NCBI GenBank assembly: GCA_916610825.1 | Contig: OU744449.1 | Span: 12,283,520-12,347,519 of the forward strand | Direction of reading: 5' to 3' | Length of the DNA stretch: 64,000 nucleotides | DNA from: Haliclystus octoradiatus | Lineage: Eukaryota; Cnidaria; Staurozoa; Stauromedusae; Haliclystidae | Shown: positions 6,512 to 57,700 of the stretch, one piece after another | Numbering within the stretch: position 1 is the stretch's first letter | Layout of the letters: the number at the start of each line of letters is the position of its first letter | Translations under genes and position numbers: made by a program | The notes under the pieces: model-generated | Database searches by the model: none | What the model saw: only the letters and a program-made list of their open reading frames with translations | What the model was told of the DNA's origin: nothing

Positions 6512-6996
<485 letters not shown>

Positions 6997-6999
6997 TTT

Positions 7000-7530
7000 C
7001 TTTTTTTGTTTTTAGATTTTTATAAAATATGATAGGATAAGATATATACGAGTTAAAAAGTGATGACTATTGCTAAAAACTGTTCTGTCATTTAAAATGA
7101 GTTAAAAGCAGTTGTTAAAATTTACAGTTGATGGCTTGTTTAAAAGTAATGTTTTGATAGTTTGTTCAAAATTGTCTAATGACATGATATATTTGATGAC
7201 GCTATTGTACATATGGGCCTACATATTCCATAGAACAGATGCGGCATGTCTAAATGCTCGAAGTCCATGCCTTTCAAGTTTGTACTTTGGAATGCACATC
7301 TTTCTCAAGTTTGTGGATCTCAGTGTTCTTTGCGGTTTGTAAACTGAAATGATAGTGATAAGGATTGTTCATTTGATAGTGATCAATTAAGATCGCCATT
7401 ACTGTACTACTTTCTATTACATTATCATTATTTTAAGGGTAAGCATATTAGTTATACTTGTAAAAGTGTTGTGCCACCTGCATGTATTTAAACCTTTTTA
7501 AATTATGTGAATAAATTCTATTCTATTCTA
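7000..7530 (+). repeat. Possible LINE 3' tail with ATTCT repeat end
   Basis: The segment ends in AATAAATTCTATTCTATTCTA (7510-7530), a short (ATTCT)n tail after an AATAAA-like signal. That is a common ending of CR1/L2-type LINEs and mobilised SINEs. The 76-codon frame at 7112-7342 has no recognised motif. Weak evidence. Confidence 0.25.
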
Positions 7531-9793: not shown

Positions 9794-10481
9794 TGATTAT
9801 TATAGCTAGGAATAATCGTTAAAAAATTAAAGAGAAAAAAAGAAACAAGTATTTTGGTTTATAATATTAATTAATATTAACAAAACCTTGCTATCTCAAG
9901 GCACAGAGGACCTTCATAAACTTAGCAGCTCATGAAAAGTTCATCAAATAGGCCATTTTAAATTCATGAACTGTTTATGATATGCTTTTGTACTGCTCAT
10001 CAAAGATTATAAATTTCATGAACCTGTTTTACTGCAAGTGCAATCTAGAGATGTGACGGTTTTTGAATTTTAATTTCAGGGCATGTGTAACGGATGAAGA
10101 ATAAATATGGAAATTTTCATCAGAATGCATCTTAATTATAAGGTCAGGCTAAATCAATCAAGTCAATGAATTAAATGATATCAGTTATTATCCCTATAAA
10201 AACTTAAAACAGTTCATGAAAAATTTGTTCATTTAACATTTATGAACTAGTTCATGAACTGTTCTTGAACTGCTTATAAGTTGTTCACGCAAAGTTCATA
10301 TATATTTATAAAGCATGAACCGTCAGTTAGTGAGCTCAACAGTCGTTTTTTTTGCAATGGTATGTCCTTGTTCATTGATCATTTGTATTTTATTGACACT
10401 GTTTAGTCCTAATCATGGTTTAATTGTTCATTGTAGGATACAGAGCACTCTTTCAAGAATTAAATCTTAGAGCTTCCCTGT
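9794..10481. other. TERT upstream region
   Basis: This is the sequence immediately 5' of the TERT start. It holds a diverged cluster of TTCATGAACTGTTC words (about 10205-10300) from the foldback MITE family, so part of the TERT upstream region is transposon-derived. No TATA box can be assigned with confidence. Confidence 0.4.
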
Positions 10482-13400
10482 ATGATTCATAACACAATGG
10501 ATTCAAAACAAAATGGAGATTTGTCAAAATCTATAAATGTAATAAACCAATTATTTAGCAACGTAATAAATCTTGATGACTTTTTGACTAAATATGGAGT
10601 TGAAAACCCTGGATTTCTCCCTAATAGAGAATTCTATGATAAAAAGTCAAGCAAATTTACGCCATTCCTTCAAAAAACAATTTTATGCTCTAACTGTGAT
10701 ACAAAAGATATTATCCCAGAAGAAATAAAAATATCACATGTCTTTAACAAAAGAGAAATGTACCTATCAGTTATTCGTCAAATTAGTAAATACTACAATG
10801 GATTTTTAGATGTCATGTTTACCAGAAGTGATCTCCATAAGACTATTGGAAGGAATATTTATAGATCAGACAGCCCTACTGTTTACCCATCACACCCTGC
10901 ATGCTTATTTGAAAATACACAAGATAGATTATGGAAGAGTTTACATGGTATGATTGGTGATGATATGATGTATTTCATCTTAACAAAGTTTTTAATATTT
11001 ATTCCTGTTAACAATAAAATTCTGTTGCAAGTAGCTGGAAAGCCAATATTTTTCACCGCAAAATTTAAAATCAATACTACATTACCGATAAACAAAGATT
11101 TTAAGATTTCAAGAAAAAGAAAATTTAAATGGGAATACCCATTCTTTAACAAGAAAAGAAAATTATCTGTGTCTACCATGAAACCCTCATCAAATACACC
11201 TATTATTACTTCTACCATGAACTATGTAAATCAAGAAGCTATGAAAGTTACAGAAATTGCAAAAAAATCTTCAAAGAGTATTATCAAGAAATCCAGACTA
11301 TTGTATTCTAAAAGGACATCAGGGAGATGTCCCAAAACATTTATTCTGAGCAAGACAAACTGCACAAATGCTTGTGTGCTTGATCTTGTAACACACTTCC
11401 TCAATCCAAATCAATCAAAATGCTCACCTGATAACAGATCTTCAATACGCAGAAGGTTCACAAAACTGAGAAAGAAAAGGGTATATAGAAACCTGTTACC
11501 TATCATTAAAAAGATGGTCAAAAGGCATAAGCAACTAAACTACAATTGTCTTCTTGATTATTATTGTAAGTCCATGATCATTTTGCCGAATGATAATACA
11601 TCAAATGATACAATTAGTCAGGAAAAGTATCAAGCTGCAAAGGCTGCATATATACCAAAGTATAAGGTAAGTCTACAAAATAAAAAGTAGATTTTATAAC
11701 ATAGCGGAATTATTCTGAGTCTGATGATAACTTATGTGAACGTAACACAATAAAACATGAACTTTTCAAGAATTCCATTAACTGTTGGCTTCCTGAACTG
11801 TTTACAGGGTGTTTTGTTGATGAACAGTTCATGAATGTTCATGAAGTTTATGATTCATCACATTGATGATGAACTGTTCATAGACCTAGTCAACGTATTC
11901 CCAGGGGAGAACAAGTAAAATAACCAAGCCTCCCTCTGGACTCATGCACTAATCCAAGGAAGTGTACACCATATATATGCTCAACTGATTAAGAAAAATC
12001 GTTTGAAATGTCTAGCTGAATCATATGAACTGTAGCCTACTGTAGCTTTAATAAACCCATTAGTTGCAATACTACATATCTTGTCTACAATTAATATAGG
12101 CCTACACATTAAGGCAAAGAAAAGCAAATTCTTACGTTCCAAGATTTACAGTTTTCCGGGCAGTTTTCAGGTGACATAAGAGCTATCTTGAATTTAAACG
12201 TTAATTTTACTTGATTTTTTTAATAATGATCGAACCTATGTGAAACCCAACTACTGACTGTTTAATAGCAATTACGTTTTAATTTACTATTCAAAACAGC
12301 TCATTGGAGTTTCACAAAATTTCACGAACAACATGTTGATCAAATGTTCACAGCTGACAGTAGTAGTAGTATAGACAGTCACATTATAGGAATGTGCCGT
12401 CCCTCTTACGCCTTACATATTTGCTACATAAATAGCTACAGCTACAGGTGACAGGTCATTCAACAAGGACAAGTATAGATAATAGATTTCTGTAATTTAG
12501 TTTTAATCCTGTATAGACATTTTTAATAAATATATAAATGAACTTTCATGAATTGTTTACAAACTGTAAGAAAGAACTAGCCATGAATTTTCATGAGCTT
12601 TTCATGGTCATTAATTTACTTTCGCTTGGAAATATATAAGTTCAGCCACTAATATATATATCGCTCCAACGTACTAATAACAGTAGAATGGTCTAAGTTA
12701 TCAAGTTGCTTCAATCCTAAGTGTTATGTTGATTTCATAGGTCGTGATGTTTGTTAATGCATTCTGCAAGCGTATAATACCAATGGAATTATTTGGAAGC
12801 AAAGAAAACTATCAAATTTTCAAGAACCATCTGAAAGTACTTATCAACCAGCAGAAGTATGAGAACATGACTATAAATCAATTTATGAAAGACATTAAAT
12901 TAAACTCAATCAAATGGTTATCAAGCAAAAAACCTACTACTTTATCTTTATCTCATTTCAAGAGAAACACTGAATATTTCACTAATGTTTTGTTATTTGT
13001 TCTGAACAATATAATTATCCCATTGTTATCATTCTTCTTTTTTGTAACTGAACTTGGAAAACAGAGAAATCATTTATTCTACTATTTAAAAGATACATGG
13101 AAGATTATCCATTCATTTGCTGTGAAAACACTTTGTAATTCGTATGTAAGAATCAATGAGAGCATAGCTATGGAAGAAGTGTCTGCTAAACAATGTTTAG
13201 GTATTTCACAAGTGAAACTTCTGCCAAGAGACAATGCTGTCCGATTAGTTGTTGATATGACTGCTACACAAAAATCTAAATTGAATATGGTCCCTATAAA
13301 TATCAAGTTAAAAAATTTATTTACTGCATTGTCATATGAGCATAAGATGAACTCAAAAGATTTTAAATACAGTGTTTCTGACATGAGCAAAGTATACAAT

Positions 13401-16400
13401 CTGTGGAAAGATTTTGTTGTGAAAGATAAAACGTCTATAAATAAGGAACATTATTATTTTGTTAGCTTGGATGTTGCTGGATGTTTTGATTCAATACCTC
13501 ACACAAAGTTATTGGAAATCATTGAAACTAAATTGCATCATATTGATTATCGATATCGTACTATTGCAATGCTTGCTATTGACAACAATGGAGTGTTAAA
13601 GAAAAAGACACATACGTTTGTTTCACCAGGATCAGATTGTTATACCTTCCAACAGTATCTAACTACACAATTAAATGGTGACCATCCCAAGGGAATGCCA
13701 GGCTGCGTTGTTAGTAGCCCTGTCCTGTACAAAAGCGAGGATAAATCTTCTTTGATGCAGCTACTCAGAAATCATATTTGTCATAATATAATCCAGTGTG
13801 GTTCAGAATATTACAAGCAAAAGATAGGTGATGTTTACGTTTGATGTTTACTTGCAGCATAAATTCATACCTCGTAATAATAATATGGCAGCAGACAAGT
13901 ATTTGATTCTGGCCGTTGGCTGTAATCAGTACTGCTTAGTACCTCTTAATATATTTTTTAATGTATCCCTTTAATTTACGTTTGATGTTTACTTGCAGCA
14001 TAAATTCATACCTCTTAATAATAATATGGCAGCAGACAAGTATTTGATTCTGGCCATTGACTGTAATCAGTACTGCTTAGTACCTCTTAATATATTTTTT
14101 AATGTATCCCTTAATTTTACGTTTGATGTTTACTTGCAGCATAAATTCATATCTCTTAATAATAGTATGGCAGCAGACAAGTACTTGATTCTGGCCATTG
14201 GCTGTAATCAGTTCTGCTTAATACCTCTTAATATATTTTTTAATATATCCCTTGAACTAATATTTTTCTTATATGTGGGCCACTTGTGTTCAGTATTGCA
14301 TACATTTTCCAAGTCAAGACTTTGACACTAATATGATAAATAATTCAAAAACAATAACATGTTCTAACTAGTTTATAATCCCTTAAATAAAAACCACCTG
14401 TTTCCATCGGTCATTTATAAAATACTTTCCCTGATACAGTTAAATCAGATTTCATGATATTATTATAATATGATATTTATATAGATAGATGTTTATTTAA
14501 TCATGTAAAACACTTAATAATAATATACAAATCCACGTAGTTGAAAGTTAATTAGTGTTACATAATAAGGTTAATCCCTGAAGCAATCAATGCTTGTTTA
14601 TTTGGGATACCTGTAAATTTATAAAATGATTAATGAAACATTATACTTAGATAATTTGTAAAATTTAAAACAACATTTAAATAAGAATATGATTGACTTA
14701 TCAAAGCAAAATAGATGTAAATCCCAATGGTAATATAATTGATGAGCATCTGTAGTTTAAACAGGGTTTAAAAATTGAACAATTGTGACATACCGTTAAA
14801 ATATTCTTCTGCAAAATAATTAGATCTTCGCATTCACTAATGTAAGCAGCTTTACGACAACTGTAGACACCTCTCCATCGTTGTCTACCGTCGGTGTCGA
14901 TATCCGATTGTTAATTATCTGATATTCCCCGTAGCTGAATATTTATCCCTCCTCCAATGTGTGCTTATTACCTTTTACGTGTGAATTTTTATTTAGGTAT
15001 ACCACAAGGAGCCAAAGTTTCATCTGTTCTGTGCGACTTTTTGCTTAGTCATGTAGAAAATGCCGTCCTCTCAGAGCTAGCAAACAAAGAAGAAAGTATT
15101 TTGATGCGTTGGGTAGATGATTCGTTATTTGTTGCAACATCAAAGGAGACGGCTGAAGCATTTCTAGAAGGTATTGTTACCAAACTTAAAGAATATGGTT
15201 GTCATATCAACAAACAGAAGACTAAAATCAATTTTAAAAGTGATTCAAACTATTTGGAAATGTCCACTTTTCAATACCGCTTGCTGCCATGGTGTGGGTT
15301 GCTATTGGATACTGCAACACTGGAGGTTAGAGCTGATTACAATGCGTACGCAGGTAATTGTCCGCATCAAGACATAGGCGAAGTTATATTTCGTAAAGTA
15401 ATGTAGTACTTTCATCTAGTAAGCATTAGAGTAGAGAGAGATTATATCTGATTATCTGACCTGGGGTGATAATTTTTCTAGTCAAGAGAGATGAACATTG
15501 TCTGTGTACTACAGATTATGGCCGTTCACTACAGGTAACACAAATGTGAAGTCATACGTGCAGACAAAATGTAGTGTGTCTGATCGAAAAAGAGTCTATT
15601 ACTCTGGATTCTATACGGCTGAAGTATGAAATCATTGGTATCATTTTCATTTAATTAGTTCTGCCACCCATTTTAGTATTTTTTTATTTCAGGTAAGCGT
15701 TTACGCAACATTATATCTATTGATCTATCTCGTCGTCCTGGTTACGCAATTAGAAGAGCCCTGCAACGTACAGTAAAACTTAAAGTGTATTTGGTTCTAC
15801 TCGATCCAATTATAAATTCATTATTTACGATTCACCTTAATATATACCAGGCATTTTTATTTACTGCGAAGAAATTTCATGTTGTCGTCAAAAGACTATC
15901 ACAAGGTAATAATAACTGATATGCTTTATGATGATCGTCAGAATATTTATTTAACTCGGATTAGCGATTGATTCAGTTATTGTTTTATAGATTGATAATT
16001 GCCATATAGTGGCATGAAATTTGCGAACGAAATCTAGTAGATAAATATATCATTTCAAAAGGAGAGGAATACTATGCTACTATACGCTCTGAGCTCTCTT
16101 GTCGCAACATGTAAACGCTAGTTAATGTTTTAGCGTTTGTTGTAAAATGTGAAATCTGAAGACTCTTCTTGGAATCTAAATTTTCGGGATGTTTACATCT
16201 TACAGTTTATAATAATTTTCAAACTCAGATGTATATTTGATTATTTGTGCAGGACACATTCAAAATAGCCGGAAAATATCGCTAATACTTCGCTCCCAAT
16301 TATATGATAATAACAGATTTCAAACCAAAAATTACATCACAGAAACTTTGCAACTCGTTACTTGCAATGTACAAATATCTTTGTCCGGTGTCCGCAGACT

Positions 16401-21300: not shown

Positions 21301-24300
21301 TTCTACTATTGATTTAGCCTGGAAGAGAAGTGTCCCTTGTAGAGGGAAGAGCATTTGCTAGAAAACATTCAATGTTGTTTATTGAAGCCAGGTGAGCAAT
21401 GATGATAATTATTACATAGTTATTTACGGTGTACTTTACCATACATGGAAAATCTCTGAGCTTGAAACAAGAAATATTTAGAAGAAAAAAAAGTATTTCA
21501 AGTACAGTTTAACCGTTATATAGCAGCCAGCTGTAAGATGTAAAATGCTATCTTAGATATTGCAATGGTGACTGCTATAACAGGTTTGACTGAACATATA
21601 TTCTGAAAATATTTTATCAAGAAAAGTGGGGAAAATTTGTCTGCATTTGACCTTATATTTCGCTGTGTATATTTCATTTTGATTTTATGTATACCTACGT
21701 ATTGACGTCAATTCATCTATAATAGGAGAACATGTATGATGTACACGTGATTATGATTTGAGTATATGATTGGAATAAAGATTCATTTATTTATTCATTC
21801 ATTAATCCATTCGTTTGTTCATTTGTTCGTTCATTCATTTGTTCGTTCATTCATTCGTTCGTTTGTTCATTCATTCATTCGTTCGTTCGTTCGTTCATTC
21901 ATTCGTTCGTTCGTTCGTTCATTCATTCATTCATTCATTCATTCATTCATTCATTCATTCATTCATTCCTTCATTCGTTCGCTCGTTCGCTCGTTTGTTC
22001 ATTCATTCATTTATTCATTCATTCGTTCTTTCGTTGGTTTGTTCATTCATTAATTCATTCGTTTGTTCATTTGTTCGTTCATTTATTCATTCATTCATTC
22101 GTTCATTCATTCGTTCGTTCGTTTGTTCATTCATTCATTCATTCGTTCGTTCATTTGTTCATTCATTCATTAATTCGTTCGTTCGTTTGTTCATTCATTC
22201 GTTCTTTCGTTCGTTCGTTTGTTCATTCATTCATTCATTCGTTCGTTCATTCGTTTGTTCATTTGTTCGTTCATTTATTCATTCATTCATTCGTTCATTC
22301 ATTCGTTCGTTCGTTTGTTCGTTCGTTCATTCATTCATTTATTAATTTATTCATTCATTCATTCGTTTTTCATTCGTTTGTTCATTCGTTCATTCATTCA
22401 TTTATTCATTCATTCGTTTTTTAATTCGTTTGTTCATTCATTAATTAATTCGTTCGTTCATTCGTTTGTTCAGTCATTCATTCGTTCGTTCGTTCGTTCG
22501 TTTGTTCAGTCATTCATTCGTTTTTTTGTTCGTTCATTCATTCATTCATTCATTCATTCATTTATTCATTCATTCATTCCTTCGTTTGTTCATTCATTCA
22601 TTCATTCATTTATTCATTCATTCATTCCTTCGTTTGTTCATTCATTCATTCATTCATTCATTCATTCGTTCGTTTGTTCGTTCGTTCGTTCATTCGTTTG
22701 TTCATTCATTCATTCATTCATTCATTCGTTCGTTTGTTCATTCATTCATTCATTCGTTCGTTTGTTCATTCGTTCTTTCATTCATTCATTTATTCATTCG
22801 CTCATTCATTCATTCATTCATTCATTCATTCATTCATTCATTCATTCATTCATTCATTCATTCATATTGCATTATAAAAGCAGTATATTCATCATGGACA
22901 TTAGACAGAATGGAATGACCCATGAAATTGATGGCCATAATTCATCACAACTTTCCTGCAGCATACATGTAAATCATGTGTATGTATTGTAGGACGAGTT
23001 GTATGCAACCATGATCTCGTATCATGAATTTGATTAGAGATGAAAAGGATCGAAGGGAGCATGGTTAACCCATGATTGAACTCTTTGAATACGATAACCA
23101 TGCAAACACATGGTAGCACTTTGTAATCATTTCTATTAGCTCTGTTGAGCTCATTTTAAAGATGTTGGTATAAACCATAGACATAATAGATATAGACTGC
23201 TGATGACGTTCGAAAACGGGCTTAAAACGTAGCACCTATTGGGGATCCATAATGGCTGACACATGCTCCCAAAGTGGCGGGAAAAGCAGTGTTTTGACCC
23301 AATATTGTTGTTAGAAAATAAAAGAATAGATCAGCCAGATTATTTCGAGCTACTTTTAAAACAGCTAGATATGATTGAATTTAACAGTTTTGTTGTGTAT
23401 CACTGAATTTCGAACCAAATCCGCTAAATTATTATATCAAATTTTCACTGAAATATCCCAATTTTGTAAGTAGGAATATCGCTGCTTTTGTAACAATAAG
23501 ACATCAAAATTTCAGAGTTTGCTCAGATTTAACATGTATTAATCATCCAAGCTGTATTTACCGGACAAGGTTCATGTTTACTGCTGGTTACAGCAAAGCA
23601 CAGGACGCAGAATGAGCGTAGAAAAGTTGATATTGAAACAATAACAAACAAATTCCAATAATGCTACGAAAAATATTCAAATTTAATTCACCAAATATCC
23701 AAATATTTTACACCCCATAGTGATAATAGTTATAAAGTCTAAGATTGATGAAGATAACCACAAATTAAGTCTCATAACCAGCAGTACCATCGCAAAACAA
23801 GCGTAGCGGATACCAATTAATATCAAAATATGCAAATTTTTATTATAATCAATGTTTCCGTAGCATTAAAACCATCTTAAAAATGTTCAAAAGCAAGAGA
23901 GATAGATATATGCAGCGATTTAAATCAATCCAAACACTTTGTGTTCACTTCAAATACCAAATTGTATTGGAATTTTGACTTTTGCGGTCAGTTTACAACA
24001 TACAACTGTAACTTTTGGGCGCATCTGTCTACCATTTTGGCTGCTCATGAGTGCCACGCGTCACGTGACCCCATCAGCGGTCTATATCTATTATGTCTAT
24101 GGTATAAACATGTATTTCAACATCACACGTCGTCGTCATTGTTCGGTATGCAGTTCACTGAGCAAGAACGATCATTTCACAGAGGATGAATTTGGTACGC
24201 AATTTGTGAGCAAAACGAGGATGGTATATTGTGTTGTTAACCAGATCTCAGTATAGGCCTACCCTCAAATAAAATCGAACAATTTAGAATTGAATATTAC

Positions 24301-25493: not shown

Positions 25494-27369
25494 CATGGAA
25501 TTTGTTCTCAATTGAATTATTATGAAATTATTTATATCCATTTTGATAAATCAAACTTTAATAGGTCAATTTATGGGAGCCTATCATATGAACTATATAT
25601 ATATATATATATGGTAAAATGCCACAATCCGGTATACAACAACGAAACCAAGTAAATAACATAGACAAACGTTTAATCAACTTCGTAACAACAACTTGTA
25701 TCAATCAGAATCAGTCTAACAGTATAAACGATATTACATTGTCTCTATAACTTACAACAACAACAACAACACAGACACAAGTTTGCTGTGAAGATCAAAG
25801 TCCATATATTATAATTATATGACATATCAAGGTAACAATTTGATATATTGATGTTTCATTGTGTCTATGGGACTGTAGACGCAGTTCTTCTTTTACTATA
25901 GTTGTGAGTATAGTATTGAATGATTGCTCCTTCCATGAAACTGAAATGAATTTCATTTTGTTGCATGTTCTCTATCTTTGCAAGTTCAATGTAAATTTCC
26001 ACGTGATTTATATTCGATTATCACATTATCAGGATTTCGATTTGTAAATTCATAAAGATTGTGAATGGGTATAGTCTTTGACTCCTTTTATTATATTATT
26101 ATACTTACCTCCTGAATTTGTTTTCCATCGCAACGCACCTCAAATTGTGAAAATAAAGGAGATTTTATATGCTTTATCCACATATTTACTTTTAATTATT
26201 GCTTGTCAAAATAAAAGAAAATATTTGATATTTGTCCATACAGCAATCATATATACCACTAAAGCCAAATCTTCTGAACAGCATACACATGTGGATTGGA
26301 ACGTAAACAATTGCATTTTGCATATGGGAGCGTATTAAACAATCTTTTGAATAGGCAAATTTGATATTGATATATATATCTGCCGAAAGATGAACGCTAA
26401 TTATATTCATCAAGAACAATTTTGGCATTTTACTCGAAACCTAATTAAGACATTTCTATCCAAACCTTAATTTCGCTCTGGAGAATGTCGACAAAATCAA
26501 ATGTCAAAATTTCTGAATAAATTGTGTTGTGATATTTGTCCATATCCTTTGTCTGCAATTGTTTTCCAAAATATGTTTGACTACTTATACAAATGTTTGA
26601 CTCCTTTGACTGTAGTATGTTATCGCTATATCGTCAACGATGCAACAAAATAGGTCGTCAGAAAGTCTTCACGACAGTGGTCAATATGCTGTCCTATTTA
26701 GGTACGGCACGACCTTTGATGCGCACTTCCTCTAGACGCCGTGAAAAGACTCCAATAGACCGAATCTGGGACATACCTGGGAGTTTTTTTACAACAATTT
26801 AGAAACATATCTGTCAATATCCTGTCTCGTTTCAGAGAGTGGCACCCTCGTTTCTACTATTAATTAGAAGTATTTTCTGATCTAATATGTGCATTGCAAG
26901 GTAATGTATCATCGACCATCTCTGCAATTTCAATGACTACGCCCCTGTCAGTGGATGGAATATATCACTTATTGATACACAAATACATAGAAGTTGAGTA
27001 GATAATATAATTGATGTAATAATTCAGCTGGCCACCAAATAGAAGAGCATGAATAGAGGTTGATTATATCGGCGATCTATACCTAAGAGATTACAAACGG
27101 AAGCTTTACAGTTAACAGAGGAGACGCATGATAGAACAATAGATATAAAACAATCCATTATACCTGTATAGGTCCTGTGTGAGCACTGGTGGAGCAATGC
27201 ATTGACACAGTTGTACCAATTCAACTGTTATAATACCCATAGCCTGCGTCACAGACCGCAATACCCCATGCACAGCTAGAGACAAATCCAATCTATTTCT
27301 CTTCCGAATTGATGATAACGCAACCAGTTTTATTTTCTTATCTAAATACGGAAAAGGCTCAATTTTATT
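25494..27369. other. RAB18-PIPOX intergenic
   Basis: Holds the RAB18 3' UTR. Short (TA)n tracts occur near 25597-25612. No supported gene. Frames of 60-86 codons here show no motifs. Confidence 0.5.
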
Positions 27370-28539
27370 ATGTCTAATATTATGGATAATGATGAGTTTG
27401 AAGTCTGTGTTGTAGGTGCTGGTGTAATAGGGTGTTCAACAGCATTTGCACTTGCTAAATCTGGTCGAAAGGTTTTACTATTAGAACAGTTTGGTATTCC
27501 TCATACTCGAGGTTCATCGCATGGTCAAAGCAGAATATTTCGCTTATCTTATCCTAAATGGAAACATGCCCAATTTCTTCAAGAAGCGCTTGAATTATGG
27601 CGTGAAATTGAATCAGAAAGTGGAACAGAATTATTAAAAATGGTTGGTTACTTATCTATTGAAGATCTTGAGGATAATTTTTTTGATGATAACTTGGTAC
27701 AACTCAAAAGACAAAATCAAAAACCAACGATTTTAAATGCTAAAGATTTACAAAATCGTTATCCACAACTAAATTATAGTGGAAATTTTCGCGGCTTTCT
27801 GGAAGAAAATGCTGGCATACTCAATGCTAGTAAATGCTGTGCGAGCCTACTCAAATTAATTCAAGCCCATGGTGGAACTATCCGAGACCTTGAATGCGTT
27901 AATAAGGTCATTCCTGCAGGTCCAGAAGTAAAAATAGTCACTAACAAAACAACATACACAGTGGATAAACTAATATTAACATGCGGAACATATTCTACCC
28001 CATTGCTGAAGGAACTAGGTCTGAATGTACCATTGAAGCCTCTAGGCGTACGAGCTATCTACTGGCCAATTGAAGACTCCCGCTATGAGGCTGTAAATGG
28101 TTTTCCTATTGTTAGCCACAGAGTAGATGATAACTTGTATGTCTACAGTCTTCCATGTCATGAATATCCGGGACTTATCAAAGTGTGCCTGCACAAAGGT
28201 ATGGATATTAATCCTAGTCAAAGATCGTCAGATATGGATAAAGATCGTAATGAAGTAGATTTTATGTCAAATTATATTGCTAAATATTACAAAGGAGTCA
28301 AGGCTATTCCTGCCATTGTCGAAGAATGTATGTATTGTGTGACACCAGATATGGATTTTGTTATTGATGTTCATCCAAAATATTCGAATGTCATCATAGG
28401 AACAGTTGCTGGGCATGGCTTTAAGATGGCACCTGTTATTGGAAAAATATTAGCTAAAATGGCGTATGGGGAAACTACAAAATATGACCTTTCAGCATGC
28501 TCGTTAAAGCGTTTTGGGAATCAGAGAAGCTCATTATGA
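27370..28539 (+). CDS. PIPOX: Peroxisomal sarcosine/pipecolate oxidase-like, intact copy
   Basis: FAD-dependent amine oxidase of the monomeric sarcosine oxidase family. It oxidises sarcosine and L-pipecolate, producing hydrogen peroxide, normally in peroxisomes. It is 389 residues, the family length, in one uninterrupted exon. The N-terminal Rossmann motif is [20 protein letters not shown], followed by the FAD-binding GSSHGQSRIFR. Near residue 317 EECMYCVTPDMDF carries the cysteine position expected for covalent FAD attachment. GHGFKMAPVIGKILA is the C-terminal FAD-contact block. The protein ends SSL, a weak variant of a PTS1 tripeptide. A second in-frame ATG four codons downstream (MDNDEF) aligns with the start of the sister copy. 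Vertebrate PIPOX has several introns, so this is either intron loss or a retrocopy. Confidence 0.9.
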   Translation: MSNIMDNDEFEVCVVGAGVIGCSTAFALAKSGRKVLLLEQFGIPHTRGSSHGQSRIFRLSYPKWKHAQFLQEALELWREIESESGTELLKMVGYLSIEDLEDNFFDDNLVQLKRQNQKPTILNAKDLQNRYPQLNYSGNFRGFLEENAGILNASKCCASLLKLIQAHGGTIRDLECVNKVIPAGPEVKIVTNKTTYTVDKLILTCGTYSTPLLKELGLNVPLKPLGVRAIYWPIEDSRYEAVNGFPIVSHRVDDNLYVYSLPCHEYPGLIKVCLHKGMDINPSQRSSDMDKDRNEVDFMSNYIAKYYKGVKAIPAIVEECMYCVTPDMDFVIDVHPKYSNVIIGTVAGHGFKMAPVIGKILAKMAYGETTKYDLSACSLKRFGNQRSSL

Positions 28540-30305: not shown

Positions 30306-31466
30306 TCATAACGAGCTTTTCTGGTTTCCAAAACGGAGTAATGAGTAAGCCGAAATATCATATTTAGTAATCTCTCCATACGCCAATCTAGATAATATCT
30401 GTCCGGTAACAGGTGCCATCTTAAAGCCATGCCCAGAGAACCCTGTTCCTATGATAACATTGGAATATTTTGGATGGACATCAATTACGAAATCATTATC
30501 TGGTGTCACACAATACATACATTCTTCGACAATGGCAGGAATAGCCTTGACTCCTTTGTAATATTTAGCAATATAATTTGACATAAAATCTACTTCATTA
30601 CGATCTTTATCCATATCTGACGATCTTTGACTAGGATTAATATCCATACCTTTGTGCAGGCACACTTTGATAAGTCCCGGATATTCATGACATGGAAGAC
30701 TGTAGACATACAACTTATCATCTACTCTGTGGCTAACAATAGGAAAACCATTTACAGCCTCATAGCGGGAGTCTTCAATTGGCCAGTAGATAGCACGTAC
30801 GCCTAGAGGCTTCAATGGTACATTCAGACCTAGTTCCTTCAGCAATGGGGTAGAATATGTTCCGCATGTTAATATTAGTTTATCCACTGTGTATGTTGTT
30901 TTGTTAGTGACTATTTTTACTTCTGGACCTGCAGGAATGACCTTATTAACGCATTCAAGGTCTCGGATAGTTCCACCATGGGCTTGAATTAATTTGAGTA
31001 GGCTTGCACAGCACTTACTAGCATTGAGTATGCCAGCATTTTCTTCCAGAAAGCCGCGATAATTTCCAATGTAATTTAGTTGTGGATAACGATTTTGTAA
31101 ATCTTTAGCATTTAAAATCGTTGGTTTTTGATTTTGTCTTTCGAGTTGTACCAAGTTATCATCAAAAAAATTATCCTCAAGATCTTCAATAGATAAGTAA
31201 CCAACCATTTTCAATAATTCTGTTCCACTTTCTGATTCAATCTCACGCCATAATTCAAGCGCTTCTTGAAGAAATTGGGCATGTTTCCATTTAGGATAAG
31301 ATAAGCGAAATATTCTGCTTTAACCATGCGATGAACCTCGAGTATGAGGAATACCAAACTGTTCTAATAGTAAAACCTTTCGACCAGATTTAGCAAGTGC
31401 AAATGCTGTTGAACACCCTATTACACCAGCACCTACAACACAGACTTCAAATTCTTTTCCAGTCAT
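30306..31466 (-). pseudogene. Second PIPOX-like copy with one in-frame stop
   Basis: Inverted paralogue of the gene at 27370-28539, also intronless. It reads from ATG at 31466 ([14 protein letters not shown]) to a stop at 30306 and is very similar throughout. One TAA at 31320-31322 replaces the glutamine codon of the FAD-binding GSSHGQSRIFR block (CAA in the intact copy). Downstream, about 330 codons remain open, with only conservative differences such as GFSGHGFKMAPVTGQILSRL near the end and the same SSL C-terminus. The covalent-FAD cysteine region is kept. It may be a very recent pseudogene, a polymorphic null allele or a base error. Translation from a downstream ATG would lack the Rossmann fold. 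Confidence 0.85.
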
Positions 31467-49038: not shown

Positions 49039-52000
49039 CTAAAGATAGATAATTTGAAATTGAGATGATTTGTGCAATCTTTTCATTTTGATATGATTCT
49101 TTGGTAACCCATTCCGTCTGAATGCCAGGTAGAAATTACTTTGAATAGATAAAAACGTATTGTAGAATTCTTTGTCAAGTTTTTCCTCGAAAATGGAATG
49201 ATTTGTCAAATTGATCTGCAAAGGAAGAAATCATGTTTCTCAAATATTTGAGCTTCATATATTATTATATTGTCTCGGTGTTGCGTTTCAAAACGTATTT
49301 TTTTCGATTAAAGAATGATATAGTCAGTCCTAAACAAATCTGAAGGCTTCTAAACAGATAGAAGTATTAGGTAATTTCAGGTTATCATTCGATTTCCTTA
49401 TAGGCGTATATAGCTGAAGTTGTTTTAAACATCTCCCGTAGTCCGAATGAGTCTATAGTGAAATATTTTTATAATTATTATCAACTTACTTGAGATCTTG
49501 TGATTCCGCTTTTTGTGATTGCTATATACTTAGATGTTTTGATATTAAACAAACGAACAAGGCTTGGTCCAAATGATTGGATCAAGAATTGCGCTGAAAA
49601 TAAAAGAGAATAAAGCTTCAATTATATTTTAAATGGTTCATTGTATAAATAATGCATGGGGGTTATTTCTTTCCCCTCGATCCATTTCAACTCATAGGTG
49701 TATTGCACATAATACCCGGGACATAATATGTTGAAATATTTACTATTTACGTCTGTTTTCCAACCCCCAGTGAATGTAATTCATGGAAAATAAAATATTA
49801 ACAAAATCAGATATGATCCGAAAGTTTCCCGAAGGTAATTTCTAATTTTTAAGAGCTACAACACACGTATGTTGGCAGGCGGTGCCCACTCTGTATACCA
49901 TCATTAATCACCAGAGAGAGAGAGAGAGAGATAAATTTACGATAGAACCGGGACAGTATATGACATAGCATGTCCAATAGAGAGACTATCGAGCTGCTCC
50001 TAGAAATGAAAGAGCGACGACAGAGACTATATCGAGGCTGGTTATAACCAAATTCAAGAGTTCTTTCCTACCATGGTGATTCAGTTTTTACTATCACACC
50101 CCTATCACATACTAAAGATTGAGAAGATATTTACCATTTTATTAACGTCTTATTTTTTAATTCAGGTTCTCAGTCCAAGTTAATCAATTAAATTCAGAGG
50201 TAAATTATGCTATACTTGACCACTTTAAAATTTATATTATTTTATGCAATATGCATTTGAAGCCAATACAGTCAAACCTGTTATAACGGCCACCTCTATG
50301 CAGCGCCCACCCATATATAGTGATCACCCTTGAAATGCATATGTAGTATTTTCTATTGAATTAGCCCTGTACATAAAGGCCGTAGCATATAACGGTCAGT
50401 TTATCTATATCTCATAGCTGACTTTTATACAGGTTTCATTTTACATGCATAGTAGTAAATTCAATCCTTAAGCATGAGTCATGGTTCCGGTAGTTAAACA
50501 ACTGAGTAGACGGCAGTGTTAGATGAGAAGATTGTCGTTATGCAAACAGAAACCTTCAGAAATACAACATTATAAATAACTTTTTCAAAGAGCTGATTGA
50601 TAGAATTAGTAATTAGTAGCATTGCGGGGGCTGCTGGCATTGGTTTTCATTTAGTGTATAATTTCCATTGAACATCTTCAATTACGGTATCATGAGATCG
50701 GGCAGCGGGCATTTCTCAATTGAAGTGACCCTTACAGCCATGTCATATCATGATTATGACTATACGGAGGTAACCATGCAGTACGTCCAGGGTCCAGTAG
50801 AAGAACAAGCTATGTTGTACTCTTGTCCGTGCAACCTTATGCCCAATAACCTGTACAGAAACCAATCGCATTATTTCTTTATGCTATATTATCGATTGTA
50901 CGTGGTAATGGAGCTATCTATATGTCTGGATTAGATGTACAAAGCGACTATGATTTCTTTTACACACGAATGATAATTATTTAAAATAAAAAACAATAGA
51001 AAATCGCTGAAAAATCAAAGTGAAATCTAAATATAGACAGCATATATGCAATACACAAACACAGTACAGTCTTTATAATCGTTGCCATTCAATAGGAAAA
51101 TAATACTATATATACGTAAGTGAAAGTAATTAACTGATTTATGAAAGAATTGAGCGGCACGATGAAATACAATGTACTTGACTGTAACAAGGAGAAAAAT
51201 AGACTGATACAGACTAATTAGAAAGACCCCACATGTAGGAGAAACTACAGATCTAGTTGTAACTCACGATACGTTAACTCTGTAAATGCTTATCGCAAAA
51301 ATTATTATACACGTTCACAGTCTACACATGTGGTACCTAATCTCACAGAATCATAAAAAATCGATGTTTCAACCTTGTAAAGCCATGATAGAGCATTTTC
51401 TGAGTAATGCAAAAAGTAGATATGCCAACATTAACCCAATATGAGACGATTTTGTATGACGTAAATGTATTTTAATTTAGCATGATCATATTAAGGGAAT
51501 GATAGCATAGAGGATGTAAAATAGTATTCTTACAGTTTGGATCATCAGGCCTGCTATTGGAGATCACAGATCCGTTGCTTGAGATTTTAACAAATCCAGA
51601 CACTCTTGAGAATATGCGAACCCTTCTTGAAAGTGATGGTTGAGTATTTTCAATTTGAACTTTGGCTTTTGACCCTGTAAGGGCTGCGTCCAATAACATT
51701 TGTGAATATGCTGTATGATGCTTTAGAGGAACGGAATTTGATAGATGCATCATGTATACCCCAGAAAGTATAAACTGTAAAAGAGATAGGGAAAAATTAA
51801 AATTAGGCTACATGTTTTGTTAAGTATAAAGGTGTGCATTGCACGAGGACAGAATATGCATTTATTAGAGAAAGCGTTGGATAGCGATTTAAGCCATGCC
51901 GGACTTCTATACTCCATGAAAATATTACGGGATTTCTTTACTTGTGGACCGTCTGTTTACGATGCAAAATCTAGTGAATGATTCCTCCTCTACATTTAAA

Positions 52001-52209
52001 TTTCTAAGATGTTCGCAATTGGCTATATAGTTGGCTACACTTTGCCAACAGAGAACTGGAAACCGTTGTTCTTATTTGCATATTACTGACAAAGTTCATA
52101 GACGAAAAATAGTCAAATTAGCAATATATATTAACAAAAACTCAGTTTATTATTTAATTTTGAAATGTTTATAACTTACCATCATATCAAGAAATGTATA
52201 ATGCAACAT
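49039..52209 (-). CDS. Fibroblast growth factor-like ligand
   Basis: Secreted beta-trefoil growth factor expected to signal through FGF receptor kinases. Four exons: 52209-52180 (30 nt, MLHYTFLDMM), 51774-51534, 49593-49490 and 49215-49039; phases agree, total about 183 residues. The N-terminus MLHYTFLDMMFILSGVYMMH can serve as a signal sequence. The core follows the FGF order: RRVRIFSRVSGFVKISSNGS, then SLVRLFNIKTSKYIAITKSG, then FEEKLDKEFYNTFLS (the family 'E.L....YNTY.S' block) and FYLAFRRNGLPKNHIKMKRL. The cysteine common just before this last block is serine here (NHSIFEE). The intron positions match the three-coding-exon FGF core. Subfamily is not assignable by eye. The first exon lies in a seven-copy tandem repeat, so which copy is used is unknown; the nearest is given. 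Confidence 0.8.
49913..49931. repeat. (AG)n microsatellite
   Basis: A short pure AG run inside FGF intron 2. Confidence 0.85.
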
Positions 52210-52808
52210 CTTGTTAGTTAATGAGCAGCCATGCAGTGCCTTGCCTATTTATCGTTATGTTTATAACTTACCATCATATCAAGAAATGTATAATGCAACA
52301 TCTTGTTAGTTAATGAGCAGCCATGCAGTGCCTTGCCTATTTATCGTTATGTTCATAACTTACCATCATATCAAGAAATGTATAATGCAACATCTTATTA
52401 GTTAATGAGCAGCCATGCAGTGCCTTGCCTATTTATCGTTATGTTCATAACTTACCATCATATCAAGAAATGTATAATGCAACATCTTATTAGTTAATGA
52501 GCAGCCATGCAGTGCCTTGCCTTTTTATCGTTATGTTCATAACTTACCATCATATCAAGAAATGTATAATGCAACATCTTATTAGTTAATGAGCAGCCAT
52601 GCAGTGCCTTGCCTATTTATCGTTATGTTCATAACTTACCATCATATCAAGAAATGTATAATGCAACATCTTATTAGTTAATGAGCAGCCATGCAGTGCC
52701 TTGCCTATTTATCGTTATGTTCATAACTTACCATCATATCAAGAAATGTATAATGCAACATCTTATTAGTTAATGAGCAGCCATGCAGTGCCTTGCCTAT
52801 TTATCGTT
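52165..52808 (-). repeat. Seven tandem 92-bp first-exon modules of the FGF gene
   Basis: Copies start at 52165, 52257, 52349, 52441, 52533, 52625 and 52717, exactly 92 bp apart. They differ at only a few positions: T/C in ATGTT(T/C)ATAAC, G/A in CTT(G/A)TTAG, and one T in copy 5's left neighbour. Read on the minus strand, every copy has GATAAATAGG (TATA-like), a four-codon upstream ATG (MAAH-stop), ATGTTGCATTATACATTTCT and the donor ATG|GTAAGTT. All seven start codons and donors are intact. The first two copies share T and G variants, so the array has a left and a right subtype. Confidence 0.95.
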
Positions 52809-52809
52809 A

Positions 52810-54714
52810 CACAGAAAACACGACTATTGCTATCAATGATTTGTGCACTTTAATGAAACAAAGAATATGGAATGGCACAAAAGCATCATTTTTAAGTATA
52901 ATAGAATTGACATCGATAAATTTTGTGGGGAATCTCATTGGACTAAGAAAACACATTTCACACTATATACTTTCCGTTCGTTGGCCATCATAAAAAGCAA
53001 TAGTTGATATATACTTTTACTGGACATATCAAGCAGATACAAGTGTGATAAACGTAACAATTAATATTCTGCCAGACTATATACTGTATATATATGCTAT
53101 GGATGTCACATGCTCCAAATTACTAAAGGACATGCATATCCTTTTCAAAGTTATGGGACTTTACGACATGGGCATCAAATTCTAGGAAATTGTGATAAAT
53201 TCATCTGATTTGATTACCATAGATATGGAATTCTGACTGTTTTTGGAGTACGACTATTTTTTATCCATTTCAGAATTTCATCTGAAGGCTCATTTCCAGA
53301 AAGTGCTCCCTCGTCAATCTTGTTCAGGAAATTAACCTGGGGCAATAATTCTTGATTTAAGCCGGATTCAGATCCTGTTTCCTGTCGGTTTCCGAACTGG
53401 GATTTGTATTTTCCACATACAGTATTTAATAAATTTGACAATATGTGATGTCAATTAATGTAATTATTGATCCTCTTGGTATGTTGGTCTCGGAACCGGA
53501 GACAATTTCCTATATTTTTAGACGGAAAATCCTAAATGTAACATCGATCTCTAATACCAAGTACGTTAATGCGTTCTCTCAATTAAGGCCCTTCGAAGTA
53601 CGTCGAACATGCATGTGTTTCTGCAATATAAATCGATTGTAATTATTATCAGATACACACATTACATAACAGTTAACTTCTCAACTGCTTCGACATTAAG
53701 ATTCTGACATTTTCCAATGTTTCAGCCAGCATGTGCTAGGCATTACTAGCTTTGTATGTCATTTTCAATGCAGCGTGGCGTGTGATATTGAGCACATAAA
53801 TACTAAGCTTATTTATACAAACTGTTCTCCTACAGATGATAGAAGTCATATATAAGCACTTCCATTACATATTTAATAATTCTGAAATGATCTATCGTTT
53901 CCAACAGTGTATAATTACAGTAAAAACATATCGTGCAGTAAGAGTTCGTGTGAAGACACAGTATACTAATATGAATATCCTTACAATCTAATACTTAAAT
54001 GGAACATTCCGACTGTTATAGAAAGATTTCCTTGGATTCAATCAAAATAAAACGTAATCAATTGAAGTACTTCAATCTCCATTATTCCATAGAGAGGGTA
54101 TTGATCCTTGACAAGACAAGTGAGTACTATATACTTAAATACCTAATATGCCCTATTCATAGACAACTTTTATAGCGATTATGTATTTGTAATGACCGTG
54201 TTATTCACTTTTTTAACACAAGCTGTGTAGGAATTGCCAGAAAACTTTTGATGCCTCTATAGACAGGTAATGGGAACTTATTGGACTAAATTAGAAATCT
54301 TGTTATCAGAGCCAAGGATGATATAGACTTCAGAATCAGCAATAATCGAAGCTAATTGAATACAAGGGTGCACGATTGACAAGAGTGGATTTGATGAGCC
54401 TAACCTGCGTGCAGAATAAAACCTTATTATAATCGAAAAGTCTGCACAATGCTCCCACTCTTAAAAATGGTTTTAGTTTTGCAATCAAGCAACAAAACAC
54501 ATGTTGCAAATTGTTTTTGAAAATACATTGTCATGCCAATATAATCAATTTTGTTATACTGTTTTAGTATATATTTTTATTGATTAAGATAATTAATCAA
54601 GTATTTTATGTATTTTATACAATCTGATTATTATCCAAGTATGAATATATATGCTTCAATTGACTAATAATCGGATAATCTGTTTATCAGTCCATATCTG
54701 GGTTAAGGTGACGA
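52810..54714. other. FGF upstream / HAT1 downstream region
   Basis: About 1.9 kb with no supported gene. It must contain any distal FGF regulatory sequence and the HAT1 3' UTR. Short frames (52793-52993, 53214-53441, 53445-53642) lack motifs. Confidence 0.45.
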
Positions 54715-57700
54715 TTAAAGTGTATCTATCCGATCGATGACTTTCTTGTATTCTTCTTCAATCATTCGATATGTTTCATCAAGGCGTTGAATTCTTTCTT
54801 GTGGATTATTTCCAACCATTGCTGCTTGGTATTCATCAGCAGATAGTGATTTCTGGGCTTTTATCATATCACGGGCTTGTCTCTGATAGATTAAAAATAA
54901 TAATACAAATATAATCTATACAACTGCTCGTTTACATTATTACGAAGTTGAATGTAAGGGGATCCACAATATACTACGGATTAGGATAGAAAAAATTATA
55001 ACAGCATAAGAGCATAAAAATCAGAAGAGCATAAAAATCAGAAGAGCATAAAAATCAGAAGAGCATAAAAGTATAATTTATGGGCACAACCTCGACACAT
55101 TTTACATATTCGCATTTTCATTGCTCAATTCTAGTTAATCTGATTCCATTGGCGGGATATTGGAACTTGCACAACGTTTTCGTCAATATGAATTTGGTCA
55201 ACAAAGCATATCTGAATCTACGAGTTATTTCTGGGTGGCATCCAGCAGGGAAAAGAAATAGGACATTTAGTTACAACCTTTCAAACTCATGTCACGAGGT
55301 GATAATCTGACCATGAACAGTTCTATAGAAAGTTCATGAACGCTAAATGACTTGTTTTTCAAGAGTCTATTCAAGGACGTTTAATAGACAGCGTTTCATA
55401 GGGGGGAGGGGGAGGGAACAAAGACGCCATCATCATAATCATTTTGTGCAATGCAAATGTCGCCACTGGGAGTAAAATTTATCACATTATTTTTTATAAA
55501 TTTTCTCATGAGCAACAGACTGGAAGGGTAATCCCCATTCCCAGTCGGTTGGATAATATCACAATTGATATAAATCAGACAGAAAACCAACCTGGAATGG
55601 CACATTCAATCGATTTTTGACATTGAGTCGATATTGATGATATTGCTGAACATTGGAACGATCAGTAAATTTGAGTCGTAGAATCTCGTAAATTCGACGA
55701 GATTGTTGCTGGAAAAGAATTGTACAAATAAATGATCACAATCTCAACAACTATATTGTAGCTTCTACTGATCATCAATCACATAGAGTTCAGAGTTTTG
55801 AAGAGATCTAAGTTATATATATAATATATTATGAATGAAATCACAAAGTTGATCGTTAGCAGAGATGTAACTGACATTGACTCAAACCTTGTTTATTTTG
55901 AACTTTGATTTTGCTTCATTTGCCATTTCGTCAGAAAAACCTTTCACAAGATTTTCAGCAGAGAATGATGGAAGATCCATACAATGTTTGCAATCGAGGT
56001 AATCTCTTAAACGGATGAACTCCTCACTTGGATCTTCCACTTAAAATTTAAATCAAACAATTATGAAAATTAGTTACCAATGAACCAATTCATAGCATTG
56101 TTTGCAATCTACTTTAATAAGCCAATACTTCATTGCAGATTGAATAATTTATACTATAAAGGGTACTATGATCATCAATTTGTGTATGTATCGTATAAAT
56201 AGCAATGAAACATGTACATAACTGTCACCTTGTAAGATCTACATAAATTGACTACTACATACAGGTGATATTTTTATGTACAGGGTTGATTCAATAGAAT
56301 AATGCTGTTTGTATATAACTGAAGTGGCCATTATATAGAGGTGACCGCTATAGCAGATTTGACTGTAATTTGAATAAGAAATAGAAATTACCTGTAATAT
56401 CAATCACTTCTTCGTCTTTGACATAGAAATCAGTTATGCAATTGAGCAGAGAGCCTGAAATATAATAGTGTTGACATCTGAGAAGTGTCTTTGGCAAATG
56501 AAAAGAGTCTAAACTCCTGCCACTATATACAATACAGTCATATATCGTATTTTCAGTTTACAACATACCTCCGTGTCCTCTTTTTTGGTATGGAGGAAGA
56601 ACAAGCATTTGACTAAAATTATAAAAATAATATTGAACATTTAGTAGTAAATCATATGTAGTAGTGCAACCGGCTGCTGCTTCTATGTGCAATATGATCG
56701 ACACATAAAACATTGAAAATCAAAATTTTACCTTAACTTGTTGTACTAAGTGACTTCCTGATTACTTTTCCAAGTTTTTTTCGATAAATGGATAAATATT
56801 TTTTGAGAAATAAGCATTCTAAAAATGAGAATTTCAAATCTTGAAAAACGGAGAATGAAAGTTAAGTGATGTCATACTGTAAACATTTCTATCACGACGA
56901 GTGAGCGCGATAAGATCACCAAAACTATCAAATATTCGTTCGTAGGAACGAAATATTCGAAAATCGTATTGTCATTATGGACGAATGTTCGATAGTTGTG
57001 GTGATCTTATCGCGCTCACTCGTCGTGATAGAAATGTTTACAGATGATGACGTCGCTCAACTTCATTTTCCGTTTTTCAAGATTTAAAATTTACATTTTT
57101 CAAATGCTTATTTCTCAAAAGATATTTATCTATTTATTGAAAGAACTTGGAAAGTAATCAAGTCACTTAGTGCAACAAGTCAAGGTAAAAGTTTTGCTTT
57201 CGATTTTTTATACGTCAAACCTATTGTTTAAAGTGCACATTGACATGAAAAAAATTATGACAGATTAAAGTAGCTGAAGGTAAATGATGAAGAATGGTGA
57301 CAATGATTTCTTAGTTTGAACGTGTATAAGCGGAGATATTTAATGTTGAAACTATCCTATTTTCGATACAGCAACTTTTTCCAAACTCGGGACGATAGTT
57401 TGAATGACAAGAGAACTTACTTAAATATCCCCACTTACATGGTCCAAATTAAAAAATCCGTTTCACCATTCTTCATCATTTAACTGCAGCTTCCCAAATC
57501 AAGTTTTTTTTGTCATGCGCACTTCAAGAATCAATACTAGGTGGTTGTCAATGAATATGAATGTGCAAACATAAGTAATATACATTCCTTGATTTTGATG
57601 AGCCCTGGAGAAAAACCATTGTTTTCAAAAATTGTACAATAAGTGATTCAATGAAATACAAAATGAGCCAATCAAACTGAGTTTGAGTACATTCGTGGGC

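Follow-up and report, generated by a model that had tools for sequence, protein, structure and literature searches.

Seven near-identical 92-bp units, placed head-to-tail upstream of an FGF gene on the minus strand of the window (the whole stretch of 64,000 nucleotides from Haliclystus octoradiatus that was analyzed), probably represent the promoter and the first exon of this gene, amplified as a young minisatellite. This reading is based on the strong splice donor of the units, its right phase toward the next exon, the lack of an in-phase rival with a donor of equal strength and the start of exon 2 without a methionine. A more far-reaching scenario, in which several identical start sites would feed one FGF mRNA from a self-contained 92-bp cassette of variable copy number, with splicing erasing the array, is possible but doubtful.

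The Tandem Array

Tandem Repeats Finder (TRF) showed one array at this locus, in which 7.0 copies with a period of 92 match by 99% without indels (table 1). Within the array, only three of the 92 unit positions are variable, that is, positions 12, 46, and 89. At position 12, which lies in the TATA-like box, unit 4 alone has A in place of T (GATAAATA to GATAAAAA), and positions 46 and 89 carry a variant shared by units 6 and 7. One more difference, at position 1 of unit 1, concerns a flanking base located just beyond the array as delimited by TRF, and the first base of this unit is therefore flank and not array. In detail, there are three types of units in a fixed order: units 1, 2, 3, and 5; unit 4; and units 6 and 7. 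The mean pairwise difference among the array units is 1.3%, or 1.7% when the edge base is counted.

When the DNA of the array was searched against its own genome (262 Mb in 33 contigs), matches were found at one place, with seven copies. This search skips very common words, and its one-place result is thus no proof of uniqueness.

Table 1. Coordinates of the tandem array and of the FGF exons in the window. On the minus strand each unit starts at its higher coordinate, in register from 52810.
Feature	Coordinates	Strand	Remarks
Seven-unit 92-bp tandem array	52165..52809	-	TRF, repeat search, unit list
Unit 1 (5'-most)	52719..52810	-	TATA-like 52805, initiator-like 52777, ATG 52761, exon 1 end 52732, donor from 52731
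Unit 2	52627..52718	-	TATA-like 52713, ATG 52669, donor from 52639
Unit 3	52535..52626	-	TATA-like 52621, ATG 52577, donor from 52547
Unit 4	52443..52534	-	TATA-like variant GATAAAAA at 52529, ATG 52485, donor from 52455
Unit 5	52351..52442	-	TATA-like 52437, ATG 52393, donor from 52363
Unit 6	52259..52350	-	C at 4 bases 5' of ATG, A in the intron part; ATG 52301, donor from 52271
Unit 7 (nearest exon 2)	52167..52258	-	also has the two variants of unit 6; ATG 52209, donor from 52179
FGF exon 2	51534..51774	-	acceptor TTTTACAG; opens with hydrophobic FILSGVYMM
FGF exon 3	49490..49593	-	Pfam FGF on the hand-joined translation
FGF exon 4 and stop codon	49039..49215	-	phmmer to solved FGFs

Anatomy of the Units

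Each unit contains, in this order, GATAAATA, CTCATTAA, an ATG with ten open codons and GTAAGTT. The TATA-like GATAAATA is found in six of the seven units, with GATAAAAA at its place in unit 4. The initiator-like CTCATTAA is found in all seven, with its first base located 28 bases after that of the TATA-like box. Both labels refer to a resemblance to the respective consensus and not to a functional test. The sequence ATGGTAAGTT is also present in every unit. The ten codons (MLHYTFLDMM) are identical throughout the array, and in all seven units the ATG, the ten open codons and GTAAGTT are in phase with the FGF frame. The distance from the TATA-like box to the donor is about 80 bp, with a leader of roughly 13–16 bases.

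The units are unlikely to have other coding roles. Their use as internal exons was set aside, as a unit has no good acceptor: the best AG inside it is preceded by 8 pyrimidines out of 15, compared with 12–14 for the three acceptors of the gene. Coding through the array was also set aside, because the 92-bp period shifts the frame and reading into the following unit meets a stop after 18 codons (from units 1, 2, 4, 5, and 6) or 27 codons (from unit 3). The 37-base part from the ATG through the donor has no variable position. The chance probability of this is 0.21 with three variable positions or 0.12 with four, and the unvarying coding part was consequently dropped as a sign of selection.

These results are in accordance with the first-pass annotation, which had described seven head-to-tail 92-bp units on the minus strand, each with a TATA-like sequence, an initiator-like sequence about 30 bases on, an ATG plus ten codons and GTAAGTT. 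The location that it gave for the array is right, but the end at 52808 falls one base short of the TRF end at 52809. Its interpretation of the near-identity as recent expansion or ongoing conversion, that is, homogenization, fits the mean pairwise difference.

The FGF Gene and Its Probable First Exon

The 30 coding bases of each unit join the exon at 51774 with phase 0, so that the FGF frame opens with them, as had been claimed for the ten codons. Together with exons 2–4 they encode a complete protein of 183 residues with a stop codon, and the length of the first intron ranges from 957 to 405 bases, depending on the unit used. A hand-joined translation of 173 residues, with approximate exon edges, passed the cut-off of the Pfam FGF domain (PF00167; E = 7.4e-12; score of 45.8 bits, cut-off of 24 bits). 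For the exact 183-residue join, a phmmer comparison with solved structures returned 127 distinct sequences at E up to 1. Among the best 60 of these 127, from which the names were taken, the first is a designed consensus FGF (E = 5.2e-10), followed by heparin-binding growth factor 1 (E = 5.1e-8), which is the best natural-type name.

The open frame of exon 2 has no methionine before its hydrophobic stretch. This is an indication of a start located upstream. Exon 2 has ATGs of its own at 51753 and 51750, but a protein starting from these would miss most of the hydrophobic start.

A secretion signal is found in many, though not all, members of the FGF family. The plausible signal peptide proposed in the first-pass annotation corresponds to a hydrophobic stretch that is not distinctive. 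Among 475 ATG-started open stretches of 30 codons in the window, with low-complexity ones removed, 32% (9-residue measure) or 22% (13-residue measure) match or exceed the hydrophobicity of the joined N-terminus. Being ordinary for the window, this character was dropped as evidence for the first exon.

On a home-made scale with a maximum of 11, the donors of the array score 9.5, and the other two donors of the gene score 6.5 (exon 2) and 9.0. The search for rival first exons included 121 other GTs from 54600 to 51834 and covered in-phase ATG exons with a coding part of at most 117 bases. Eight of these GTs reach a donor score of 4.5 or more and join such an exon. The top one, at 53217, scores 6.5, equal to the donor of exon 2, and its coding part is the ATG alone; another, at 52970, scores 5.5. 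No in-phase ATG exon with a donor as strong as that of the array was found between 54700 and 51834.

The upstream neighbor is a HAT1-like gene, with a HAT1_C domain in 55885–56040. Its last exon was read at about 54715–54915, where no Pfam match above the cut-off was obtained. Between this gene and the FGF array, an open, coding-looking frame of 78 residues is located at 53217–53450 on the minus strand, with no Pfam match.

Proposed Origin and Usage of the Units

An ancestral single core promoter and the short first coding exon of the FGF gene were probably captured whole in a 92-bp segment, and a young minisatellite of seven head-to-tail copies would then have arisen from this segment. Every copy would retain what is needed for starting and splicing, that is, a TATA-like box, an initiator-like site, a leader, the ATG with its ten codons and a strong donor. 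In an RNA begun at any copy, one donor would be spliced to the acceptor before 51774 and the remaining copies would leave with the intron. Since the units have no good acceptor, RNA from any copy is predicted to splice to 51774 and to give the same protein. The donor nearest to the cap would have to be used, because a retained unit brings an early stop: the use of a later donor would lead to a stop 18 codons past the first ATG, or 27 if unit 4 is retained, and such transcripts are predicted to be dead or to yield a regulated product. The mRNAs from different copies would be alike except for a T (units 1–5) or a C (units 6 and 7) located 4 bases 5' of the ATG. In the mRNA itself, this base distinguishes units 1–5 from units 6 and 7, and ordinary RNA-seq could tell the two groups apart.

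The earlier claim that any copy could serve as the first exon for the same protein agrees with the anatomy, given the identical codons, the phase 0 and the lack of a good acceptor; that several copies really fire is less likely. We infer that the unit acts as a promoter and first exon with one or few copies firing, and that the copy number varies between individuals. Copy number might tune the output of FGF. A distance of 92 bp between start sites probably leaves too little room for the simultaneous use of all seven units.

Within the first-exon reading, a tentative variant is that a single copy is used, either the outermost or the one nearest to exon 2, and that the others are passive repeats. 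A nucleosome covers about 147 bp, and as the 92-bp spacing is shorter, few copies could be accessible simultaneously. As six of the seven units have identical core signals, position would decide which one is active. Against this variant, the sequence itself singles out no active copy; an altered TATA-like box is found in unit 4 alone.

If several units fire, the array would act as a natural dial that sets how much of a developmental signal is produced, by simple gain or loss of repeats and with the protein unchanged, and would also provide a natural test of competition among closely packed identical promoters and donors. If the cassette scenario is true, signal dose could evolve by repeat number with an unchanged protein and an almost unchanged mRNA.

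Chance Expectation and Alternative Explanations

A different and rather unlikely explanation is that the array is a chance minisatellite, located upstream of the gene or in its first intron. The FGF gene would then start with exon 2 itself, with some other exon upstream or through the addition of a spliced leader, and the signals within the units would be coincidental. Tandem arrays as such are ordinary, since arrays with a period of 30 or more and 2.5 or more copies were found at 10 places, including the FGF array, in 233.8 kb (14 rows, merged by hand), and minisatellites of comparable period are therefore frequent in this genome. Among these 14 rows, the FGF array is the only one with at least 5 copies and at least 98% matches. 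The ATGs within exon 2, the weaker in-phase first exons of the eight donors mentioned above (e.g., 53217 and 52970) and the ordinary hydrophobicity of the N-terminus are also compatible with a coincidence.

The frequency of the signals was examined in a background sample of 468 kb of single strand, which comprises the window and 17 ten-kilobase pieces of the same genome, each on both strands, with the array excluded; all the module patterns were composed after the unit had been seen. In this sample, a TATA-like box is followed by an initiator-like site at the correct distance 20 times. A looser module (TATA-like box, open ATG exon and GTAAG, with no initiator) occurs 7 times, or 0.0014 per 92 bases, which counts against the first-exon reading. 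Against a coincidence, strong donors are rare, with 21 GGTAAGT in the whole sample (0.004 per 92 bases, the length of a unit), and the strict ordered module of TATA-like box, initiator-like site, ATG, and GGTAAG has 7 matches within the array and none in the 468 kb of strand outside it. The hydrophobic start of exon 2, with no methionine before it in the open frame, also speaks against a chance minisatellite.

The near-identity of the seven units would suit an assembly artefact, with the real genome carrying fewer units, but this is highly unlikely, as 645 bp is a short distance for long reads and a simple stutter would not give three types of units in a constant order. In spliced-leader genes, which form tandem arrays, a strong donor follows a short exon, and the array resembles them in this respect; its identity as a cluster of small spliced-leader RNA genes is nevertheless extremely improbable and was set aside, as neither of two Sm-like patterns tried on the unit as a binding site after the donor was found, the sole Rfam match of the window at gathering score is a tRNA with none at the array, and the seven copies occupy one genomic place, in phase before an FGF exon.

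Comparison with Known Systems

The interpretation of the array as the promoter and first exon of the FGF gene has its closest case found in PEP1, the FLC orthologue of Arabis alpina (Albani et al. 2012). In this gene, a tandem duplication includes the first exon and a portion of the promoter, and both first exons are spliced to a common exon 2; the predicted proteins are identical in accession Paj, and separate start sites were shown by 5' RACE in accession Dor (PMC3527215, PMC7927791). The likeness lies in the tandem copies of promoter plus first exon before a common exon 2 and in the identical predicted proteins of Paj. At the level of sequence, all seven FGF units have this arrangement, each with a start codon and a donor. 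The differences are that PEP1 is a plant gene in which a segment of about 2 kb is present twice, with little upstream homology, whereas the FGF array has seven 92-bp units and belongs to an animal, and the use of its units is predicted from sequence. Two-copy duplications of promoter plus first exon are known, and seven compact copies are new with respect to the literature covered.

The first exons of UGT1 and of the protocadherins encode different peptides. In these variable-first-exon clusters, many first exons are located before shared exons (PMC1885805, PMC1851988). The FGF array is similar in having an array of first exons predicted to be spliced to shared downstream exons. It differs in that one ten-residue peptide is encoded in all seven units; no difference among first-exon peptides was found, the ten codons being identical in seven of seven.

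Minisatellites or VNTRs of promoters consist of head-to-tail near-identical units, whose number is probably variable, and the array has this composition by its period of 92, its 7.0 copies and its 99% matches. Contrary to a promoter VNTR, where the unit is a factor-binding site, the FGF unit apparently comprises a complete core promoter, a start codon and a splice donor. In rDNA, spacer promoters are whole core promoters in tandem upstream of one transcription unit. They resemble the FGF array in this repetition before a single transcription unit, but they are served by RNA polymerase I, are non-coding and have units with neither exon nor donor.

In barley, HvFT1 alleles with several copies of the promoter and transcribed region had no clear link between copy number and expression (PMC4047512). 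The HvFT1 copies are larger and partly whole-gene, unlike the FGF units, but they call for caution in assuming a dosage effect for the FGF array. In the full-text literature searched, with most subscription papers outside its scope, no array of seven identical promoter-plus-first-exon units was found, at least in the portions available, and a search for FGF together with minisatellites in the same literature gave no paper.

Other Features of the Window and the Genome

A telomerase reverse transcriptase (TERT) gene is located in pieces at 10464–15406 on the plus strand, with matches to the TEN, telomerase RNA-binding and reverse transcriptase domains in three open frames. At 13834–14253 (plus strand), a 141-bp unit is repeated three times (95%), and the first copy overlaps the last 11 bases of the open TERT frame 12741–13844. 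All three copies contain the acceptor-like TTACTTGCAG. This is a second tandem array of the window at a probable exon–intron border.

Two genes of FAD-dependent oxidoreductases (Pfam DAO), at 27346–28539 (plus strand) and 30306–31319 (minus strand), are inverted and about 1.8 kb apart; judged by eye, they are very similar. The window also contains two long tetranucleotide arrays, that is, ATTT with 125 copies at 6515–7011 and ATTC with 271.5 copies at 21781–22865. Elsewhere in the genome, two contigs (L021 and L022, positions 1–600 of each) begin with CCCTAA repeats, which correspond to telomeres of the TTAGGG type.
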